A stretch of DNA of 64,000 nucleotides from Gallionellaceae bacterium. GTDB lineage: Bacteria > Pseudomonadota > Gammaproteobacteria > Burkholderiales > Thiobacillaceae. Below are positions 52,767 to 61,650 of this stretch, in pieces; the stretch's first letter is position 1; the number at the start of each line of letters is the position of its first letter. The stretch spans positions 62,001 through 126,000 of the forward strand of contig JAQTLN010000003.1 in the NCBI GenBank assembly GCA_028714875.1, given 5' to 3'. The position numbers were made by a program, and so were the translations under genes. The notes beneath the pieces were generated by a model. It had not been told where the DNA came from. It made no database searches and saw only the letters and a list, made by a program, of their open reading frames with translations.

Positions 52767-52781
52767 TCCGGCGCGGCCGGC

Positions 52782-54284
52782 ATGCCCGCGTCCTCCGCGC
52801 TTGAGCAATTGGCCTGGCGCCTGGCCGCGCAACAACCGCGTCTGGCCGACTTCGCGGCGGGCCTGCGGCCGGCGCTGGCGCCCGGCGCGCGGCTGGCCAT
52901 CCGGCGCCTGGATGGCGCCACCCAGAGACTGGAAACCCTCGCCGAAATCAGCTGCGATTCGGCTCGGGACACCCTCCGCCAGGCCCTGAACCCGGAACTC
53001 TGGACGGCGTTGTCGCGCCTGGCGCGCGGCGCCGAAGTCTGGGAGGGCACGGCCGCAGAGGCGAGACGCCGCTATCCCGGCCTGTTGTCGAGTGACTGGA
53101 GCGGGCCGCTGGCCCTGGCCGGCTTGTACCGCGACGACGTGGCGGGCCTGTTGCTGTTGGCGCAGGCCGATCCCGTCGCCGCCGCCGGCGCGCTGCGCGA
53201 GCCCTGCGCCGCCGCCCTCGCCAACGAACTGCGCTGGCGCGAACTGGCGAGCGGGCGCGAGGCGGCGGAAGCCGAGCGGCAGGCCCTGTTGCTACGCCTG
53301 AAACGCCAGGACATCAGCGACAGCATCGTCGGCGCCGAAGCCGGTCTGCGCGAGGTCATGGAGGCCGTAAACCGGGTGGCGCGCGCTGATACCCCGGTGT
53401 TGATCCTGGGCGAAACCGGCAGCGGCAAGGAAGTGGTCGCGCGCGCGCTGCACCAGCGTTCACGCCGTGTTGAAGGCCCCTTCCTGCGCGTCAATTGCGG
53501 CGCGATTCCCCCGGAACTGATCGACTCGGAACTGTTCGGCCATGAACGCGGCAGCTTCACCGGCGCGGTGGGCGCGCGTCGCGGCTGGTTCGAGCGCGCC
53601 GACGCCGGCACCCTGTTTCTCGATGAAGTCGGCGAACTGCCGGCCGCCGCCCAGGTGCGCCTGTTGCGGGTGCTACAGGACGGCGGCTTTCAGCGCGTGG
53701 GCGGGGAACGCACGTTGAACGTGGATGTGCGGGTAGTCGCCGCGACCAATCGCGACCTGCGCGCGGCGGTCACGCGGGGAGCGTTTCGCGAAGACCTGTG
53801 GTTTCGCCTGGCCGTGTTTCCCATTCCCCTGCCGCCCCTGCGCGAACGGCTCCAGGACATTCCCGCCCTGGCCGCGCATTTCTCGTTGCGCGCCGCCGAA
53901 CGCCTGGGCTTGCCGCCGCGCATGCCCGATGCCGCCGATCTCGGCCTGCTGGCGGCCTACCCCTGGCCCGGCAATGTGCGTGAACTGGCTTCCGTGCTCG
54001 AACGCGCCGCGATCCTGGGCGACGGCCGCGCCCTGGATGTGGCGCGCGCGCTGGGGATCGCGCCATTCACACCGCCAGCCGCGCCGCTCGCGGAGGCCGC
54101 CAGCGAAGCCCGCCCGGCGTCACTCGAAGCGGCCATGCGCCGGCATATCGAAGCGGCCCTGGCGCGCTGCCACGGGCGCATCGAAGGCCCATTCGGCGCC
54201 GCCCTCGCCTTGAGCATGAACCCCCACACCCTGCGTTCCCGCATGCGCCGACTCGGCATCCCCTGGGGCAAGTTCCGGGGGTAA
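52782..54284 (+). CDS. Sigma-54-dependent activator with GAF-like N-terminal domain
   Basis: 500 residues: an N-terminal GAF-like sensor (about 20-170), a short coiled coil, an AAA+ domain with Walker A GETGSGKE (near 209) and Walker B FLDEVGE, and a C-terminal Fis-type HTH (NPHTLRSRMRRLGIPWGKFRG). The sigma-54 contact loop reads GSFTGA instead of GAFTGA (about 257-262). The layout resembles NorR/FhlA types, but the signal is unknown. Its 3' end and 64 nt beyond occur again, diverged, at 55246-55459. It is 15 nt after thyA. Confidence 0.9.
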   Translation: MPASSALEQLAWRLAAQQPRLADFAAGLRPALAPGARLAIRRLDGATQRLETLAEISCDSARDTLRQALNPELWTALSRLARGAEVWEGTAAEARRRYPGLLSSDWSGPLALAGLYRDDVAGLLLLAQADPVAAAGALREPCAAALANELRWRELASGREAAEAERQALLLRLKRQDISDSIVGAEAGLREVMEAVNRVARADTPVLILGETGSGKEVVARALHQRSRRVEGPFLRVNCGAIPPELIDSELFGHERGSFTGAVGARRGWFERADAGTLFLDEVGELPAAAQVRLLRVLQDGGFQRVGGERTLNVDVRVVAATNRDLRAAVTRGAFREDLWFRLAVFPIPLPPLRERLQDIPALAAHFSLRAAERLGLPPRMPDAADLGLLAAYPWPGNVRELASVLERAAILGDGRALDVARALGIAPFTPPAAPLAEAASEARPASLEAAMRRHIEAALARCHGRIEGPFGAALALSMNPHTLRSRMRRLGIPWGKFRG

Positions 54285-54348
54285 GGGTCGGATAGCCCAG
54301 CTTGGGCTGGGAATTGGGTGGCTATTAATCGGCCTTAAGAGACGGTCA
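54136..54348 (+). repeat. Direct repeat, copy 1: 3' end of the sigma-54 activator gene
   Basis: From codons for the MRRHIEAAL region through the stop and 64 nt beyond. It aligns with 55246-55459 (offset about 1110 nt) with about 23 differences in 213 positions by my hand alignment (about 89% identical), and only a 1-nt gap. The two copies bracket the DUF4160/DUF2442 pair. Confidence 0.92.
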
Positions 54349-54473
54349 AGGTTCAGGCTGAATGTGTGATTGCATGGCCTGACCCCGCTTGGGAGACCCA
54401 TGACGGCGCAATGGAAAACACACGCCGGAAGTCAAATTGCATGTATGCAACCATTGCACTAGCATCTGGTCCC

Positions 54474-54704
54474 ATGCCAGTCATCCAGCGCTTTTCAAAT
54501 TGCCGGGTTGCCATCAACCCGCGAGATCACGCTCCTCCACACTTTCATGTCGTGCTCAACGATGGACGTGAAGCCTGGGTTGCCATCGCCACAATGGAAA
54601 TCCTTCACGGCAAAGTGGCTGCGCGCGAGATGACCGATGTACTGGCCTGGGCCAGGATCAATCAGACCATGCTGGCAAGGAAATTCGAGGAGCTACAACA
54701 ATGA
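54474..54704 (+). CDS. DUF4160 protein (toxin-antitoxin-like pair, first gene)
   Basis: 76 residues from ATG 54474 (MPVIQRFSNCRVAIN); ATG 54441 is an alternative and neither has a strong ribosome site. The DUF4160 signature is PRDHAPPHFHVVLNDGREAW, with the histidine cluster typical of the family. DUF4160-DUF2442 pairs are common in bacterial chromosomes and are often taken for toxin-antitoxin-like modules, though the function is not settled. It overlaps the next gene by 4 nt. The pair is bracketed by the diverged direct repeat. Confidence 0.82.
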   Translation: MPVIQRFSNCRVAINPRDHAPPHFHVVLNDGREAWVAIATMEILHGKVAAREMTDVLAWARINQTMLARKFEELQQ

Positions 54705-55198
54705 GCAAAGACCATTTTCAACTGACCTCAGTGACGCCCCTGCCGGGCCACCGGCTGCGCCTGATTTATGCGGATGGCCAAACGTTCGAGGTTGGTCTCA
54801 GCGAGTGGATCGCCACATCGCCCATCCTACGTCCACTCAAGGAGGCCGCGCTGTTCGCCCAGGCAAGGATCGGCTTTGCCGGTCGGACAGTGGAGTGGAT
54901 TGCGGACGAGCTTGATCTTGGTACCGACAACCTGCGCAACCTCGCCATCGAACAGGCCGGCGGTATCGGCCATGAACGCATTTGGAACTGGCTGCACGAG
55001 ACCGGCTTGACGCTGGAGCAGGCCGCGAATGCGCTGGGCATCTCGCGCCGAATGTTGATCTATTACCGTGACGGCGAGAAACCGATTCCTCGTTCGATCT
55101 GGCTGGCGTGTCTGGGTTGGGAAGCCGTGCGCCCGAAGGGTGACAGCCTGCCGCGGCAGATCCCTACAGCGCGGGAATATGCCGCGATGCATGGTTGA
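54701..55198 (+). CDS. DUF2442 protein with C-terminal helix-turn-helix
   Basis: 165 residues: DUF2442 in the first 80 (TSVTPLPGHRLRLIYADGQT, RPLKEAALFAQARIGFAGRT, VEWIADELDLGTDNLRNLAI) and an HTH in the second half (GLTLEQAANALGISRRMLIYYR) ending PRQIPTAREYAAM. The DNA-binding tail suggests it represses the pair, in the manner of an antitoxin. It is coupled to the DUF4160 gene by ATGA. Confidence 0.82.
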   Translation: MSKDHFQLTSVTPLPGHRLRLIYADGQTFEVGLSEWIATSPILRPLKEAALFAQARIGFAGRTVEWIADELDLGTDNLRNLAIEQAGGIGHERIWNWLHETGLTLEQAANALGISRRMLIYYRDGEKPIPRSIWLACLGWEAVRPKGDSLPRQIPTAREYAAMHG

Positions 55199-55246
55199 TT
55201 TATCAATGGCTTGGAGAAATTGTGAGCCTGGCCCCTTTGGCCCTGT

Positions 55247-55394
55247 GCGCCGGCATATCGAAGCGGCGTTGGCGCGCTGCCACGGGCGTATCGAAGGCCA
55301 ATTCGGCGCGGCCCTCGCCTTGAGCATGAATCCCCACACCCTACGTTCCCGAATGCGCAGACTCGGGATGCTCTGGGGCAAGTTCCGGGGGTAA
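55247..55394 (+). pseudogene. Headless 3' fragment of a sigma-54 activator gene
   Basis: Encodes RRHIEAALARCHGRIEGQFG through RSRMRRLGMLWGKFRG and a stop, matching the last 48 residues of the activator at 52782-54284 with three substitutions. No start or ATPase domain precedes it. Most base differences from the intact gene are silent, so it was under protein selection before it was cut off. Confidence 0.85.
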
Positions 55395-55432
55395 GGGTCA
55401 GATAGTCCAGCTTTGGCTGATGAATTGGGTGG

Positions 55433-55457
55433 CTCTTGATCGGCCAAAGCAGACGGT
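55433..55457 (+). repeat. 25-nt sequence repeated inverted at 61589-61613 (left copy)
   Basis: CTCTTGATCGGCCAAAGC followed by AGACGGT. Its reverse complement occurs at 61589-61613 with one mismatch. A third, more diverged version is in copy 1 of the direct repeat (54321-54346). Confidence 0.85.
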
Positions 55458-55460
55458 CAT

Positions 55461-55951
55461 GGAGTCCTGGAAATGTGGCCCTGTAATTCCTTGATTTCCA
55501 TGCCTTCCAGAATCTGGAGGATCAGGGTGCCCACCTTGGTTATCTCTTGGGTGACGCCCTCGATATCGACTTTCCATGGAAAAATGAGCCGGTAGCTGTC
55601 AAAGGCTGCGAAGGGAAACTGTGAACAGTCGCAAAAGCGAAGGGATACGTAGTGACTCAGGCAGGAAAAACGTGACAGCCCTCCATGAAGTGGCGCTACG
55701 GGGATGGAGCATAAACATCCCCGCTGACGTATCAAGGCTGATCGCGCAAGCATCAACTGGGTTTTATTTAACCCAGTTTGTTTGTGCTGGTTTACCCAAG
55801 TGGGTCATCCATACCCCAGCCGCCTTAGTTGATCTCGCATTGACCGAATGAATTCAAAGACGTCCAACAGCGCTGTGAATGGCATATTCTTTGCTTAAGG
55901 ACCAATGGAAGTCCACACGAATGGCAGCTAACCCTTAGAGGGGAGCGAGAC
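55461..55951. other. Gene-poor stretch at the start of the five-gene cluster
   Basis: About 490 nt without a convincing gene. A plus-strand frame from GTG 55621 (76 residues, AAGGGA five nucleotides upstream, containing GFYLTQFVCAGLPKW) and a minus-strand frame at 55457-55756 (99 residues, containing VTQEITKVGTLILQILEG) overlap each other. Neither matches a family I know. I expect the promoter of the downstream cluster here, but could not fix boxes with confidence. Confidence 0.4.
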
Positions 55952-57094
55952 ATGTCGGGGGTTCTTAAACCGAGAGAACAACAAGTCAAGGGGAAACCCA
56001 AGATGAAAATCGCCTTTACCTCTTGCGCCTATCTTCAGAAATACCCAATACAGTTAGGTTGGCAGCGAATCCAACAACTTGAGCCAGATGTACTCCTGCT
56101 CTTGGGCGACCAGATTTATATGGATTTTGGCCTCCCACGATTTGGCGGCGATCTCTATGTGCCACGCAAGTTTTCGTTGACAGAGTTCGCGTCGCGGATG
56201 TATGACCGATACCGCCATCAGTACACAGAACAGTACTTTCGAAACCTGCTGGAATCACGCCCTGACATGCGAATTGCCGCAACTTGGGATGACCACGATT
56301 TCGCATGGAACAACGCATGCGGCGGGCGTTGCCAGAAACCGGAACCTGACGAACAGGTCACTCGGATAATCAAAGATGGCATGCAACACAAAGTGCCAGA
56401 CGACAAAAAATGGGTGACGCGAAAGCTATTCATGCAATACCTGGAAACCGTGCGTGCCCGAAAGGAAGACTACCCCCCTCCACCTTTCGATCTCAGCAAC
56501 CCGCCTACGGATCAGATACTGAGTGACCTAGGCATTCAGGAAGCCTTCGATCTAGAGGGAGGGCAAATCAGAGTGTTGATGCTGGACGTGCGGTATCACC
56601 GTGATTGCCGTCTTTACATGGAGGACAACGCGTCACACGCTCGCATCATGGACGATGCGCAGATGACTTGGCTGCGTGAGCAACTCAATGGAAATCAGGA
56701 AGTGACGCTGATATGCAGTGGCTCCACCCTTACCGATGCGGAATGCTGGAAACAATATCCACGAAGCTACGGAGAGTTGCTTTCGGCTAGTGCTGGAAAA
56801 AAAGTGCTGGTGCTCACAGGTGATATCCACCAGAACAAATTCCACGCCCACAATAATCCCCACAACAAGGAAATTCGCTTGTTCGAGGCCATTTCCTCAG
56901 GTATTGCAATCAGGGGACTCAAGCCATTTTTGTGGTTGGGAGACCAAGAAAATTTTGGCTCGCTGGAAATCGATAACACACAACTGACCATCAACCTGTA
57001 TCGGCGTCGGGGGGCAATCGAATCGCACCGTATCAACCGCGCTACTTGGCAGGAGCAAGAAATCAGTGCCAAATCATTTGGCATTCCAGGTTAG
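55952..57094 (+). CDS. PhoD-like metallophosphatase
   Basis: 380 residues. The PhoD/alkaline phosphatase D metal blocks are clear: LLGDQIYMD (near 55-63), ATWDDHDFAWNNA (near 110-122), ICSGSTLTDAE and VLTGDIHQNKFHAH (near 290-303). Typical PhoD enzymes cut phosphodiesters or polyanionic polymers such as teichoic acids. There is no signal peptide or Tat motif, unlike most exported PhoD, so it may be cytosolic. GGGAGCGAGAC precedes the ATG. First gene of the five-gene cluster. Confidence 0.87.
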   Translation: MSGVLKPREQQVKGKPKMKIAFTSCAYLQKYPIQLGWQRIQQLEPDVLLLLGDQIYMDFGLPRFGGDLYVPRKFSLTEFASRMYDRYRHQYTEQYFRNLLESRPDMRIAATWDDHDFAWNNACGGRCQKPEPDEQVTRIIKDGMQHKVPDDKKWVTRKLFMQYLETVRARKEDYPPPPFDLSNPPTDQILSDLGIQEAFDLEGGQIRVLMLDVRYHRDCRLYMEDNASHARIMDDAQMTWLREQLNGNQEVTLICSGSTLTDAECWKQYPRSYGELLSASAGKKVLVLTGDIHQNKFHAHNNPHNKEIRLFEAISSGIAIRGLKPFLWLGDQENFGSLEIDNTQLTINLYRRRGAIESHRINRATWQEQEISAKSFGIPG

Positions 57095-57148
57095 CGCAGG
57101 CAAAGGCCAAGATCAGTTATTCCTTAAACAAATAAGCAGGAGAGACGC

Positions 57149-57976
57149 ATGTCACAAGCCAACCACCCCCGTGATTACGCCAACATGCTCGCGGATTTTC
57201 CGTTTAAGCCACGGAAGATCCTAATCGAGGGCGACTCTTGGGTTTCGCATCCGTTTCTCGCCAACCTGACGGCGCAATTCGATCAGTTTGGCAAAGGAGA
57301 ATTCGCCATCCTCAACATGGCTCAACCCGGGGATACCGCAAAGCGAATGCTGTCACCCGACAGCAGCCAATTCAAGGACTTGTCTGCGCTCATCGTCAAC
57401 GAGCAATACGGCTACAAATGGGATTTTATCTTCATTAGCGCGGCGGGTAATGACATCGTTGGTGACGACATCCTTAGCTATGTGGATGACAAATCGCCCG
57501 GGAAGTATGGCAAGGAACTGATCAACGACAGCTTCTCTAAGCGCGTCACCCAGATCGCCGAGGATTTCAAGAACCTCATAGATTTCCGCGATCAGAGCGA
57601 AGCCAATCCGACCACCCCTATCGTCACCCATGCCTACAGCTATCTAACGCCACGCAAGGTCGGCACCAAGCTGTTCGGCGCCATGCTGGGCTCAGGTTGG
57701 ATTCAGCGTTACCTCGAGCCGAAGGGCATCGAGGACATCGAGGAGCAGAAAGAAATCGTCCGGGAAATGCTGGATCAGTACTACAACGCCATGAAGGGGC
57801 TGGAACAGCCCGGCAACAATTTTGTGGTCGTGGACACCCGCCCACTGCTGTCCAGAACGCCCACCCGGCCCAACCTAGCATGGTGGCACGACGAAATTCA
57901 TCCCAATTACACTGGCTTCAAGAAAGTCGCCGAAGTGATTCGCACGGAAATGAAAGTCGCGGGTTACTGGCCATGA
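57149..57976 (+). CDS. SGNH/GDSL-family hydrolase
   Basis: 275 residues. The four SGNH blocks are present: IEGDSWVSHP (serine near 29), the glycine in MAQPGDTAK, SAAGNDIVGDD (asparagine near 100), and the catalytic WWHDEIHPNYTGF near the C-terminus. Such enzymes are esterases, lipases or deacetylases. No signal peptide is seen. CAGGAGAGACGC precedes the ATG, 54 nt after the phosphatase gene. Confidence 0.88.
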   Translation: MSQANHPRDYANMLADFPFKPRKILIEGDSWVSHPFLANLTAQFDQFGKGEFAILNMAQPGDTAKRMLSPDSSQFKDLSALIVNEQYGYKWDFIFISAAGNDIVGDDILSYVDDKSPGKYGKELINDSFSKRVTQIAEDFKNLIDFRDQSEANPTTPIVTHAYSYLTPRKVGTKLFGAMLGSGWIQRYLEPKGIEDIEEQKEIVREMLDQYYNAMKGLEQPGNNFVVVDTRPLLSRTPTRPNLAWWHDEIHPNYTGFKKVAEVIRTEMKVAGYWP

Positions 57977-58022
57977 TGATCCGAACCAGCCGACCGATCC
58001 CGCAGTAGATCAGGAGCATCGA

Positions 58023-58442
58023 ATGAAGACGCTATCTCCCGGTACAGCTTTCACCCTAGAGGTAGACCCGTGCGCCTTATTCCACCCCAGCGGGATCGAA
58101 GTAACTGCCGGGGCACACTACCAGTTCGAAGCCAGTGGAATGTGGGGTGATAGCAAGATCAAGCGTGGACCGGAAGGCTGGCATGGGCTGATATTCCAGG
58201 CTTGGAATCGATTACCGTGGCGACCTTTCATGCTGCTGTGTGGCTCGGTAGGACAAGACTTGCAAAAGTCATTTCCCATCGGCCGCACCTTGGAATGGAG
58301 AGCATCGTCAGAGGTAACCGGCTGGCCAGATCGCCAACTCTATTTTTTTGCCAACGACTGGCCAAGTTGCTACAGGAACAACCATGTACTTCCGCCAGAG
58401 GAAGGTGGCCCGCTCAACGTGTCTATTACTCGTTTGAAATAA
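58023..58442 (+). CDS. LecA (PA-IL)-like beta-sandwich protein
   Basis: 139 residues with the build of galactose-binding PA-IL-like lectins: FEASGMWGDSKIKRGPEGWH, MLLCGSVGQDLQKSFPIG and YFFANDWPSCYRNN before a final strand (PLNVSITRL). The ND-x-x-x-x-Y-x-NN pattern matches the lectin's calcium and sugar loop. No signal peptide, as in LecA. AGGAGC precedes the ATG, 46 nt after the SGNH gene. Sugar binding is an inference from fold similarity. Confidence 0.68.
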   Translation: MKTLSPGTAFTLEVDPCALFHPSGIEVTAGAHYQFEASGMWGDSKIKRGPEGWHGLIFQAWNRLPWRPFMLLCGSVGQDLQKSFPIGRTLEWRASSEVTGWPDRQLYFFANDWPSCYRNNHVLPPEEGGPLNVSITRLK

Positions 58443-58576
58443 CACCTGGGAGATACTGTTGGTTAGCGGGTGTGGTGACCACGATGTGTGAGCTGGGAAT
58501 GTGATTCCGGCCAAGTTGGGAATTTGAGAAGCAGTGAAGAAAGAAATACAACAAAAGACTAAAGAAAGAGGTTCAT

Positions 58577-59875
58577 ATGCGTGTCCATGTTTTGGTGGTA
58601 TTTTTTGCTCTGGTTAATGCGTCATTGGCACAGGATTTGAGCATAATCAAAAAGACGTACGCTCCTGATTCAGCCAAGGCACGCCTTGAATATTTGGCTA
58701 CTGAACCTACAGAGAACTGGCGCCCTATTTTCACGAAAAGCAAGCAAAGCGTTCCTATCCAAGTGCTCGATACGAATAACATAACAATCGATGATCAACT
58801 CTCGAAGATAAAACCTCCTGGGGTCAAATATCGCACGCCCAACTATGCTCCATCCCAGGTAGTCGATGGCCCGTCGTACGAATTCGGTTCAAAGGAATCC
58901 CTCAAGGACTACCTCACTCCTGAAAACACAATGGAGCGAGTGCTAGACTTGGCAAGATCCTATCAGTGTAATGACGAGATCGGGCCATTCAAGACTTCAC
59001 TCGATATGGTCAATTCGTCATTCAGCACAAGTCTCGGCCAAACATGGAGCCCTTGGTTCTGGAACTATATCCGAGAGAATAACATTCAACCTATAAGAGC
59101 GCGAGCAATGCAGAAGTATCGCTCAGCTCAATCAGCTTTCAAGAACGCATGTTTGTCACGAGATGCCGTTGGAATGACTGCGGATCAAAAAACGCAGATT
59201 ATTAGCGTAATTGGATTTTTCAGAAGTTCTGATGAGGGGACCTACTGCACTGGCACCCGAATCGCACGCGATCTAGTGATATCTGCAGCACACTGTTTTT
59301 TCGATGTGCGAAAGGGTTGGGCAAGGTATTCCAGGACCGATCAGAGCCGATTCCACCTTGCAGTGGACAAGGTGGGCTACCCCTTTGAGCTAGTGTCATG
59401 CACATTGGGGGAAGATGGTCAGAGTTGCAACTCACTTACTGCCAAAGCGAAAGACGATCATATCATAGTTCGACTCCGGCCTGATCCAGGAATAACACTT
59501 CCACAATTTACACACCTATCCACCGACACTCCGAAGGAAGGAGACAGGCTTGTTCTTGTGGGATACGCAACTCAGTTTGAAGGAGAAGACATCACCGATC
59601 CCCTGCATTACTTGGGAACTTCCGAGCAATACCCGGGGTGTGTCATCAAGAGCACTATGGGTGGTTGTATCCATCATGGTTGTCAGGCGTTCGAAGGTTA
59701 CAGCGGGGCAGCCATATTCCGAAGGGACAAACAACATGGTCTTACTATTTTGGGCATTCATCTCGGGACTGACGGTCCCGCTGTTGATGGTGGGGAATGT
59801 AGCGCGAACCGGCAACAATTAGGCAACCTAGGGTACAGTATTTCACCCACAGTTGCCTCGATCTTGGCTAAATAG
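58577..59875 (+). CDS. Exported trypsin-like serine protease
   Basis: 432 residues: signal peptide (about 1-18, cleaved after LAQ), an N-terminal extension of about 190 residues with no known fold, and a trypsin-like domain with H in VISAAHCFFD, D in AKDDHIIVRL and S in FEGYSGAAIF. The usual GDSGG is GYSGA, as in some distant members, and several cysteines could form disulfides. The long extension may be a pro-region. AT-rich compared with the window (sample lines near 38% GC). It follows the lectin-like gene by 134 nt. Confidence 0.85.
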   Translation: MRVHVLVVFFALVNASLAQDLSIIKKTYAPDSAKARLEYLATEPTENWRPIFTKSKQSVPIQVLDTNNITIDDQLSKIKPPGVKYRTPNYAPSQVVDGPSYEFGSKESLKDYLTPENTMERVLDLARSYQCNDEIGPFKTSLDMVNSSFSTSLGQTWSPWFWNYIRENNIQPIRARAMQKYRSAQSAFKNACLSRDAVGMTADQKTQIISVIGFFRSSDEGTYCTGTRIARDLVISAAHCFFDVRKGWARYSRTDQSRFHLAVDKVGYPFELVSCTLGEDGQSCNSLTAKAKDDHIIVRLRPDPGITLPQFTHLSTDTPKEGDRLVLVGYATQFEGEDITDPLHYLGTSEQYPGCVIKSTMGGCIHHGCQAFEGYSGAAIFRRDKQHGLTILGIHLGTDGPAVDGGECSANRQQLGNLGYSISPTVASILAK

Positions 59876-59900
59876 CAACTCAAAACGAATGGAGCTAGGT

Positions 59901-61385
59901 ATGAAAACCACAATTGCTTTAACTATTTGTCTGGCCACGGGGTTCGGATCGGCAAGCGCCGAGCCCCAAAAAAGAAATTTTGAAGATAAGGAACTGATAG
60001 CAAACACCTACACTGTAAGGGCTGCTGTTACACCTAATTGTCCGATTAGCAACGAAAAGAGAGAAAGCGTAGTAGGAGCGGTGCTTGCGGCCATTGCCCC
60101 GACCCTTGTCGAAAAAGCCGTTGACTGGGCTGCAGCCTCGGCAAAGGCTGCAGGTGACTCAAAGTCGTCTTCAGCGGAAATCGCAACGACTTACACGAAC
60201 ATGTACATAACCGACGCAGCAGGTAACCTTAATTTTGCACAAGGTTTCGGCTGCTTGGTAATTGTAGCGGGTGATTTTGGAAAATCCGATCAGAAGAGGC
60301 TGACTGGCACATGGAAAAACGATACGCTAATAATTTCTAAATTATTAGCAAGTGACCCACGTATCTATATTGAGATGGCTGTAAATCCTACCCAAGACGG
60401 TAGCCACTTCGTGCTGATACCAAAGTATTTGTATTTCGATAAGCCTGCGGAATCTTCTTGGTTTCGGAATGATACGCGTGCGGTAAACCTGTCCTTGTCG
60501 TTCTTCCGCTCGCAAGAGAAGGAGCCGTTCGCGAGTGCAAATATCATGTTTCCCCGACTCACGGCTCCTACGAACCTTGACATGAAGGAAGAGGACGTAT
60601 ATTCACTTTCAACCGGCTATCTAGCGGCCTATCCAATTGACGATCGGATTAAAGAGACGTTAGCGGCCGAGAAGGCGAATATGGACAAATCTAAGGTGGA
60701 AGATGAGAAAGTCGCCCAGATTAAGAATGTCATTGAGAGTGGCAAAGAGGCAGAAACAAGTCTCCAGAGATTTATTGCAGAAAATGACAATCAGAAAAGA
60801 CATGTATTAATGGGTTATCAAAAGCCTTTTGAAGATGCGCTTTCAGCACTCTGTAAGACAGCTGTAAAACAAAAGGTTGAACGGACCAATTGTCCTGACG
60901 ACTTGTATTGGAAAGAAGAGGAGCTTAGGTACATTACCAGTCTATTGAAGGCAATTTCTGATGGAAAGAGCTTTACCCAGCCGAATTCAACAAATAAGAA
61001 GGCCAAGCAGGCTGATGAAAAAAAACTGGTGGGGTATACAACAATTCAAGTTTCAATGGTCGAAACTCGAGATGGAAACGCATTCCTGAAACTGGTTGGC
61101 GATGTGCTCGATGGTTCCAAGGCTGAGATCAAGGCCGCCGCAACTGAGCAGTTGCCTGGTAAACGCAAAGATGCCAAAGAAAAAGAGCAAACAGACAATG
61201 AGAACCTGGTAATCGCCGCTGCAGGTGAGCTTGCTGCAGTCAAGAAGCTTGAAGCAAAGGTTGCCCAAGAGACTGATCCCGTGGAAAAAGGCTCCCTTGA
61301 AGCGGACCTCTTGGTGGCAAAGATAAAGGCTAACCAAGCCTACCGAAAAGCGGGAATCAAGCAGCCCTATGACGTTGGCCTCTGA
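59901..61385 (+). CDS. Exported protein of unknown family, last gene of the cluster
   Basis: 494 residues from ATG 59901 (GGAGCTAGGT upstream), signal peptide (about 1-23, SASAEP). The first half looks folded, with beta-rich parts (NFAQGFGCLVIVAGDFG, YIEMAVNPTQDG, VNLSLSFFRSQEKEP). The second half is charged and helical (LAAEKANMDKSKVEDEKVAQ and further coiled coil to the end). No family is recognised. It starts 25 nt after the protease gene, so the two are probably co-translated partners: substrate, inhibitor or scaffold. Confidence 0.78.
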   Translation: MKTTIALTICLATGFGSASAEPQKRNFEDKELIANTYTVRAAVTPNCPISNEKRESVVGAVLAAIAPTLVEKAVDWAAASAKAAGDSKSSSAEIATTYTNMYITDAAGNLNFAQGFGCLVIVAGDFGKSDQKRLTGTWKNDTLIISKLLASDPRIYIEMAVNPTQDGSHFVLIPKYLYFDKPAESSWFRNDTRAVNLSLSFFRSQEKEPFASANIMFPRLTAPTNLDMKEEDVYSLSTGYLAAYPIDDRIKETLAAEKANMDKSKVEDEKVAQIKNVIESGKEAETSLQRFIAENDNQKRHVLMGYQKPFEDALSALCKTAVKQKVERTNCPDDLYWKEEELRYITSLLKAISDGKSFTQPNSTNKKAKQADEKKLVGYTTIQVSMVETRDGNAFLKLVGDVLDGSKAEIKAAATEQLPGKRKDAKEKEQTDNENLVIAAAGELAAVKKLEAKVAQETDPVEKGSLEADLLVAKIKANQAYRKAGIKQPYDVGL

Positions 61386-61588
61386 GCAGACAAGATTACA
61401 ATTACTTCGAGCGGGATAATCCGCCAGCAAACTTCGCTTGTTGGCTCTGTTCTAATCAAGCTGAACATTGAGACAATAGAAATACACGAAGCGAAGTAAA
61501 AACTAGCGAGAAAATAATTGTGAGGTGCCCCAGAACGAGAATATGCATCCCTCTTTTTCCTTTGGGATGTTTTGCAACAGCCACGCTT

Positions 61589-61613
61589 ACCGTCCGCTTT
61601 GGCCGATCAAGAG
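61589..61613 (-). repeat. 25-nt inverted copy (right end of the cluster)
   Basis: ACCGTCCGCTTTGGCCGATC plus AAGAG, the reverse complement of 55433-55457 except for one base. It stands 38 nt before the tlpA-like stop codon. The rest of the 265-nt spacer holds nothing I recognise. Confidence 0.85.
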
Positions 61614-61650
61614 TCATTCAATGCGCCCCTGCCGAACGCACAGTAATTAG

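Follow-up and report, generated by a model that had tools for sequence, protein, structure and literature searches.

Introduction

Kaur et al. (2020; PMC7159879) describe NucA-trypsin systems ('System 3') with murein-attacking effectors, as well as the caspase and alpha/beta-hydrolase pairs of VMAP ternary systems. Alpha/beta-hydrolase effectors are assigned to membrane-lipid hydrolysis in PMC8195603, and nuclease-protease proenzyme pairs, along with trypsin-LmuA fusions, are described in PMC12799240. Here, we analyse a block of five genes located in a stretch of 64,000 nucleotides (nt) from a Gallionellaceae bacterium (assembly GCA_028714875.1, contig JAQTLN010000003.1, positions 62,001-126,000), referred to as the window. 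The genes encode a PhoD-family metallophosphoesterase (gene 1), an SGNH/GDSL hydrolase (gene 2), a free-standing version of the domain found at the C-terminus of Tle1-like phospholipases (gene 3), a trypsin-fold serine protease with predicted export (gene 4) and a further protein predicted to be exported (gene 5). We tentatively favour the reading that the block is an acquired, mosaic cassette of envelope- or lipid-attacking hydrolases of the conflict type.

The window resembles the NucA-trypsin systems in possessing a trypsin-fold peptidase with effector partners; an SGNH relative stands directly beside a Trypsin_2-Endonuclease_NS fusion (locus L244), and murein-attacking effectors are associated. 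In contrast, Pfam identifies no nuclease (Endonuclease_NS) domain in the five proteins, and the protease looks exported. With the VMAP pair the window shares a peptidase accompanied by an esterase-type hydrolase, and SGNH-caspase fusions on rhizobial plasmids resemble an SGNH version of that pair; the window, however, contains a trypsin-fold protease and no caspase domain according to Pfam. The SGNH fold differs from that of the alpha/beta-hydrolases. Similarity to the nuclease-protease proenzyme pairs lies in the position of trypsin-like gene 4, which adjoins a possible substrate gene (gene 5), and in a match of gene 4 to the PADLOC LmuA model (E-value, E, 3.6e-6), but the product of gene 5 has the look of an exported protein and is without a match to any nuclease family, and Pfam reveals no defence enzyme fused to gene 4. 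Tle1-like phospholipases (PF09994) have a C-terminal domain in common with gene 3, and two such proteins occur beside SGNH; unlike these, the source genome has no match (0 in each case) to the PF09994 catalytic domain or to the type VI secretion system (T6SS) sheath protein PF05943. Finally, a DUF4160-DUF2442 pair reminiscent of DhiT/DhiA toxin-antitoxin modules neighbours the block, but it lies outside the five genes, between two copies of a regulator gene end, and its DhiT score falls under the model cut-off. DhiT is the name of the NCBIfam model, and DhiA is the other member of these modules.

The block has a foreign composition and is missing from two related junctions

All five open reading frames (ORFs) lie co-directionally on the + strand, where the original prediction had placed them, with intergenic gaps of 54, 46, 134 and 25 nt between genes 1-2, 2-3, 3-4 and 4-5, respectively. 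The predicted good ribosome sites could be recognised by eye, with a purine-rich stretch preceding each of the five starts, and none of the five genes matches a housekeeping family in Pfam or NCBIfam, again as predicted. The guanine plus cytosine (GC) content of the block (55951-61385) is 49.6%, compared with 63.2% in the remaining window and a minimum of 61.5% among tiles of 5.4 kilobases (kb) across 1-52700. This bears out the foreign composition first proposed; the hand-counted 41% given at the time was right as to low GC, but as a value holds at most for single lines. From gene 1 to gene 5, GC amounts to 51, 54, 54, 48 and 46%, and third-position GC to 56-70% in genes 1-3 versus 47-48% in genes 4-5. 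The 134-nt gap between genes 3 and 4 together with this GC step suggests that the block consists of two modules, of three and two genes.

A comparison with relatives lacking the block had been proposed as a check for a clean empty site. We examined 13 loci around relatives of the tlpA gene that lies on the right-hand side. In two of these (L053 and L055, from genomes G027 and G028), thyA adjoins tlpA within approximately 60 nt, the two genes being convergent as in the window. An empty thyA-tlpA junction therefore exists, but it is not the five genes alone that are missing: the absent segment spans 52767-61650 (8.9 kb) and comprises a regulator gene, the DhiT-like pair and the five genes. These junctions support insertion, and do not support the ends originally assigned to the block. 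Lateral acquisition, as cargo of an insertion hotspot between thyA and tlpA, is the best explanation for the block.

The SGNH family has recurrent degradative partners

Gene 2 (57149..57976, + strand) encodes an SGNH/GDSL hydrolase of 275 amino acids (aa), with a PF00657 score of 36 bits against a cut-off of 23.6. Across 14 sequences Ser30, Asn101 and His251 are invariant and Gly61 is nearly so; the Asp three residues before the His (D248) is Asn in many relatives. No signal peptide or hydrophobic N-terminus was found in a simple hydropathy scan. Relatives with 22-33% identity occur in 10 of 116 other genomes of the family, and within the order a profile detects relatives in 25 of 398 other genomes. 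Relatives are also present in 32 plasmid records and in two viral contigs (L239, L240).

An annotated feature underlies the SGNH match in 20 of the 32 plasmid records, and in nine of the 20 it bears a caspase (5), amidase (2), S8 (1) or trypsin-like (1) label. We opened 16 plasmid loci, five of which (L005, L241, L242, L243 and L252) already bore such a peptidase or amidase label at selection, and Pfam confirmed an SGNH fusion in all five. SGNH is fused to a caspase in L005 and L243, to Amidase_3 and M15 in L241, to Amidase_3, M74 and S8 in L242, and to Trypsin_2 in L252. Stand-alone SGNH genes adjoin a Trypsin_2-Exo_endo_phos gene in L108 and a Trypsin_2-Endonuclease_NS gene in L244, and one forms part of a Metallophos-CHAT-...-SGNH-M15 cluster in L006. 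Further relatives are found near chitosanase and L,D-transpeptidase genes (L004) and beside a chitosanase gene (L254).

To quantify the association outside fusions, we used ten loci, i.e. all but one of the 11 annotated records lacking a fusion label (the remaining one, H45, matches H44 in coordinates and score); L115, which has no annotation, was excluded. A peptidase, a murein- or chitosan-cutting enzyme or a phospholipase is annotated within approximately 5 kb in seven of the ten (L004, L006, L107, L108, L254, L255 and L256), versus three of 25 control tiles (Fisher p 0.0016, a guide only, the tiles being our own choice from five plasmids of the set and many records coming from related rhizobia). 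The control positives are L259 (Xaa-Pro and M20 peptidases) and L260 (patatin; M81 peptidase). As the M81 gene spans two tiles, counting it twice gives 4/25 and p 0.0039. Alpha/beta hydrolases, amidohydrolases, a beta-N-acetylhexosaminidase, a YghX hydrolase and an exonuclease in the controls were not counted. Inclusion of the label-chosen loci leads to an inflated figure (12/15 versus 3/25, p 2.7e-5).

Neighbours in the 37 genome loci were first read by eye, with chosen proteins sent to Pfam, and a comparison of near (up to 1.2 kb from SGNH) with far ORFs (beyond 4 kb; 95 of 99 used) served as a check. Patatin was identified in 5/95 near ORFs versus at most 1/95 far ORFs, PhoD in two near versus one far, and Metallophos in two near versus at most one far; the mechanical ORF caller used missed at least one true neighbour (the Tle1 gene in L228). 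On plasmids the hub pattern around SGNH is thus clear; on chromosomes this applies mainly to patatin. Among the matches listed from the open-licence literature, no title or start of abstract combined SGNH/GDSL with caspase, trypsin, patatin, DUF2235, PhoD or amidase. A text search of PMC7159879 returned 0 occurrences of 'SGNH', and 0 of 'GDSL' in the main text.

On a Rhizobium sp. TH2 plasmid (L242, 4899-9854), the SGNH/Amidase_3/M74 murein endopeptidase/S8 subtilase protein is 1651 aa long and is encoded a few genes from YcaO/TfuA genes. On a Geminocystis plasmid (L252, 1468-7431), the trypsin-SGNH fusion is followed co-directionally by GH19, TPR, amidase and murein endopeptidase genes, resembling a lysis set.

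PhoD and SGNH genes adjoin in unrelated genomes

Gene 1 (55952..57094, + strand) encodes a 380-aa PhoD-family protein (PF09423, 48.9 bits, cut-off 27), with the motifs GDQIYMD, DDHDFAW and GD.H common to two relatives. The hydropathy scan revealed no signal peptide or hydrophobic N-terminus, and the protein is not equivalent to the exported alkaline phosphatases of NF058638 (AlkPhosPhoDBac; 17.5 bits versus 1000). A PhoD gene directly precedes SGNH, in the order of the window and with a short gap, in L217 and L218, which come from different genomes of the same genus. In Thauera aminoaromatica S2 (L129) the order is reversed, PhoD directly following SGNH after a 30-nt gap. As both families are sparse, three independent adjacencies are improbable by chance on a rough estimate.

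When 84,980 species genomes were scanned with a profile built from gene 1 and its two relatives, 64 loci matched, and Proteobacteria contribute many of these. A Lipase_3 gene lies within 1 kb of a small PhoD-family gene in L129, L152 and L169; within the same distance, L138 encodes a Tle1-like protein and L149 a PLD-type protein. Neither PhoD nor SGNH matched in phages. With respect to layout, the small PhoD-family gene followed by Lipase_3 within 1 kb occurs in Shewanella, Vibrio and Thauera, the Thauera locus (L129, 7218-10734) presenting SGNH, PhoD, a membrane protein and Lipase_3 in a row with transposase genes downstream. One viral contig (L117, 7399-8361) carries a PhoD-family gene amid phage-like genes.

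Gene 3 resembles the C-terminal domain of Tle1-like phospholipases

Gene 3 (58023..58442, + strand; 139 aa) had been labelled LecA-like. The label is not supported, with no match to LecA/PA-IL lectins in Pfam, NCBIfam or PDB sequence searches, none of which named the protein. A tblastn search at E 0.01 retrieved only one relative from plasmids (E 2e-3), located towards the C-terminus of a Tle1-like protein from Hymenobacter, and phmmer over the loci opened gave matches at E 3.2e-5, 0.0043 and 0.017. The two weak matches (0.0043 and 0.017) fall in the Tle1-like proteins of L228 and L067, where they occupy the same position C-terminal to the catalytic domain, and both genes directly adjoin SGNH; the third match is L113. 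An alignment of these three C-terminal domains with gene 3 contains 19 invariant columns (4 sequences). No relatives were found in viral contigs. Single-sequence structure predictions were too poor for fold comparison, with a mean predicted local distance difference test score (pLDDT) of 32 for gene 3 and 42 for gene 5. The window thus retains SGNH and a docking-type domain, with PhoD in the place that the Tle1 catalytic domain occupies in L067 and L228; PhoD may replace Tle1 functionally.

Genes 4 and 5 form a predicted exported module

The protein encoded by gene 4 (58577..59875, + strand; 432 aa, 10 Cys) contains SAAHC and GYSG motifs and scores 22.8 bits with PF00089 (cut-off 20.6) and 25.7 with PF13365 (cut-off 27.6). 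It tests as a member of the trypsin fold, with Asp 293/294 as candidate for the triad, and its hydrophobic N-terminus in the hydropathy scan predicts export. No relatives were detected in plasmids, viral contigs or 369 genomes of the class beyond the window itself and one 68-residue match. The latter (E 2e-4) was rejected as spurious, since it has two internal stops and lies inside another long ORF.

Gene 5 (59901..61385, + strand; 494 aa) is open upstream, and the start was chosen at 59901. Its N-terminus is likewise hydrophobic, predicting export. It was absent from all 116 other genomes of the family and without relatives in plasmids or viral contigs; a single-protein pattern scan, sensitive to close relatives only, returned only gene 5 itself in 84,980 species genomes. 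Library matches were at chance level (NCBIfam E 0.022, PDB E 0.37 and 1.8). Adjacency, shared export and analogy with the protease-activated partners in PMC12799240 suggest that gene 5 may be a substrate or partner of gene 4.

Possible functions of the block

If the block is a hydrolase cassette of the conflict type, module 1 (PhoD, SGNH and gene 3) would act in the cytosol, pairing a phosphodiesterase or phosphatase with an acyl-ester hydrolase, and might attack phosphate- or acyl-bearing envelope lipids or glycans. Gene 3, whose relatives are fused to a Tle1-type phospholipase, would provide a docking domain. Module 2 (genes 4 and 5) would be exported and comprise a trypsin-fold protease with a partner that is processed or co-acting. 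The whole would represent a degradative effector set, serving either self-killing on infection or attack on competitors. A conflict role is proposed because caspase, trypsin, subtilase, murein-amidase, Tle1 and patatin domains are elsewhere fused to, or encoded next to, members of the SGNH family. These partners point to a weapon or a means of self-destruction and less to a metabolic function. The acquisition-type composition, the empty junction, the homologies and the recurrent pairings are observed, and it is joint action, substrates, the protease-partner relation and the conflict role that we infer here.

Several observations weigh against this assignment. The original prediction treated the five genes as one acquired unit, yet no locus opened carries relatives of more than two of them. 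Within separate searches for each gene, which covered differing samples, the five-gene set was not found elsewhere, an outcome that the original prediction had named as refuting it, whereas the sub-pairs PhoD-SGNH and SGNH-protease do recur. Genes 4 and 5 have no clear homologues, and so nothing outside the window ties module 2 to module 1. Neither NTPase domains nor known adaptor domains are detected in the five proteins by Pfam, and the enzyme activities are predictions from sequence. Since PhoD and SGNH have no export signals, they would not meet the exported protease without a further step. Among the ten non-fusion plasmid loci, three (L116, L244 and L253) have no degradative enzyme annotated nearby, although L244 has one by Pfam, and the subtilisin-labelled gene beside SGNH in L107 matched no Pfam family. 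Chromosomal peptidases show no near/far difference among the families listed (25 of 66 and 25 of 89), with one Lon near SGNH and one M1 peptidase and one gamma-glutamyltranspeptidase far from it. Finally, SGNH adjoins PhoD in only one of the 64 PhoD-family loci (L129), in a check whose ORF caller missed the PhoD ORF in some loci.

A serious possibility is that unrelated cargo has collected in an insertion hotspot by chance, without joint function beyond perhaps that of PhoD and SGNH. The failure to find the five-gene set elsewhere is as expected in that case, as are the wide gap (134 nt) and the drop in GC from gene 3 to gene 4. The nearby DhiT/DUF2442-like pair, together with the second copy of the regulator end, suggests that insertion has occurred here repeatedly. 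Against this stand the five co-directional genes with good ribosome sites, and the recurrence of the PhoD-SGNH and SGNH/gene-3-domain associations in unrelated genomes.

A nutrient-scavenging operon is unlikely. Here PhoD would free phosphate, SGNH would cut esters and the exported protease would yield peptides, and PhoD, GDSL esterase and exported protease families are indeed common in scavenging. Scavenging PhoD enzymes are, however, reportedly exported, and genes 1 and 2 have no hydrophobic N-termini; moreover, no transporter family is found among the five proteins by Pfam, and relatives have murein amidases, caspases and nucleases among their partners. Less probable still is a role in remodelling the surface polymer of the cell itself, by trimming of acyl and phosphate groups with proteolytic maturation. 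SGNH and phosphodiesterase pairs can edit glycans, and the chitosanase and L,D-transpeptidase neighbours in L004 and the chitosanase in L254 are compatible with such a role, but none of the five proteins matches a Pfam family of glycosyltransferases or polymer exporters.

We also considered a discrete transposable element, ending in inverted repeats. The original prediction noted a 25-nt sequence inverted at the two ends of the block, and this repeat is real, with 24 of 25 positions matching by eye. It forms the core of 34-nt arms, the left at 55424..55457 (+ strand) and the right at 61589..61622 (- strand), beyond the 3' end of tlpA. The arms are 88% complementary, far above chance (approximately 4e-7 such inverted pairs expected in 8 kb). 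As the proven end of an element, however, the repeat does not stand: a direct duplication of 217 bp includes the left arm, and further copies of the motif exist elsewhere in the source genome, with one near-copy in a congener, so the repeat alone is no marker of an element end. The empty site in L053 and L055 likewise has its join away from the arms. No recombinase family was found by Pfam among the five proteins or in a 99-aa ORF beside them (smaller overlapping ORFs were not scanned), and no target-site duplication was seen by eye outside the arms. We consider such an element improbable. A Tle-like T6SS effector cluster, suggested by the homology of gene 3 to a domain of Tle1-like proteins, is rejected for this host on the zero PF09994 and PF05943 matches in the source genome.

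Returning to the SGNH partnerships, it is possible, though doubtful, that bacterial conflict systems commonly include this family as a partner that has so far gone unrecognised, in the form of an exchangeable 'SGNH hub' of which the window holds one set. Such a hub would recruit, from any families available, a protease (caspase, trypsin, subtilase or CHAT), a phosphodiesterase (PhoD, calcineurin, Exo_endo_phos or PLD) and an envelope- or lipid-cutting enzyme (amidase, M15, patatin or Tle1). In the window it would have taken up PhoD together with a free-standing Tle1 docking domain, and also the orphan pair of secreted protease and partner. Were the association true, it would offer a sequence handle on conflict modules in which SGNH takes the place of the alpha/beta-hydrolase beside caspases, and would make testable parts of both the PhoD-SGNH pair and the free-standing docking domain of Tle1 type.

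Duplicated regulator end and other features of the locus

A sigma54-dependent regulator gene (52782..54284, + strand; PF00158, E 1.2e-67) begins 16 nt after thyA. Its final 149 nt and 67 nt past the gene end are duplicated in direct orientation, as copy A (54136..54351, + strand) and the degenerate copy B (55246..55462, + strand), identical at 193 of 217 positions (89%). Copy A ends with the repeat motif (54313-54346) and the left arm is the tail of copy B, such that the motif occurs locally three times, twice direct and once inverted (54313-54346, 55424-55457 and 61589-61622). Between the copies lie the genes for the DUF4160 protein of the DhiT-like toxin family (54366..54704, + strand; PF13711, E 7.7e-12) and the DUF2442 protein, a putative antitoxin (54701..55198, + strand; PF10387, E 2.2e-7) with sub-threshold helix-turn-helix matches. 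The former matches the DhiT model NF048015 at E 5.1e-6 and 27 bits, far under the cut-off of 100. The duplication around this pair (54136-55462) looks like an insertion at a gene end, and the locus illustrates duplication of a regulator 3' end around cargo at an insertion hotspot.

In 11 relative regulator loci, alignments of copy A with the gene end extend at most approximately 4 nt beyond the stop codon and thus do not reach the downstream part of the repeat, and no thyA was present in flanks of up to 1.5 kb. The 25-34-nt motif (TGRCTCTTGATCGGCC..AAGC.GAC) has a low copy number in the source genome and one congener. The 25-nt form is found elsewhere in the source genome at C33:23992 (1 mismatch) and C43:11515 (3 mismatches), and in congener G024 (C16:29693) with 1 mismatch. 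Allowing up to three mismatches, it matches in 4 of 61 genomes, the source genome included, with G029 and G872 having three-mismatch matches only; a reversed control pattern also gave 2 matches in the same search.

Promoter and terminator scans of the locus performed no better than chance level, and Rfam yielded no match at the gathering threshold. The 99-aa ORF (55457-55756, - strand), located between the left arm and gene 1, has no Pfam match and may be a remnant. Short single-strand stretches containing the repeat motif fold as hairpins no better than shuffles; a longer stretch of copy B folds better than shuffles (z -2.6), with a stem that uses upstream sequence.

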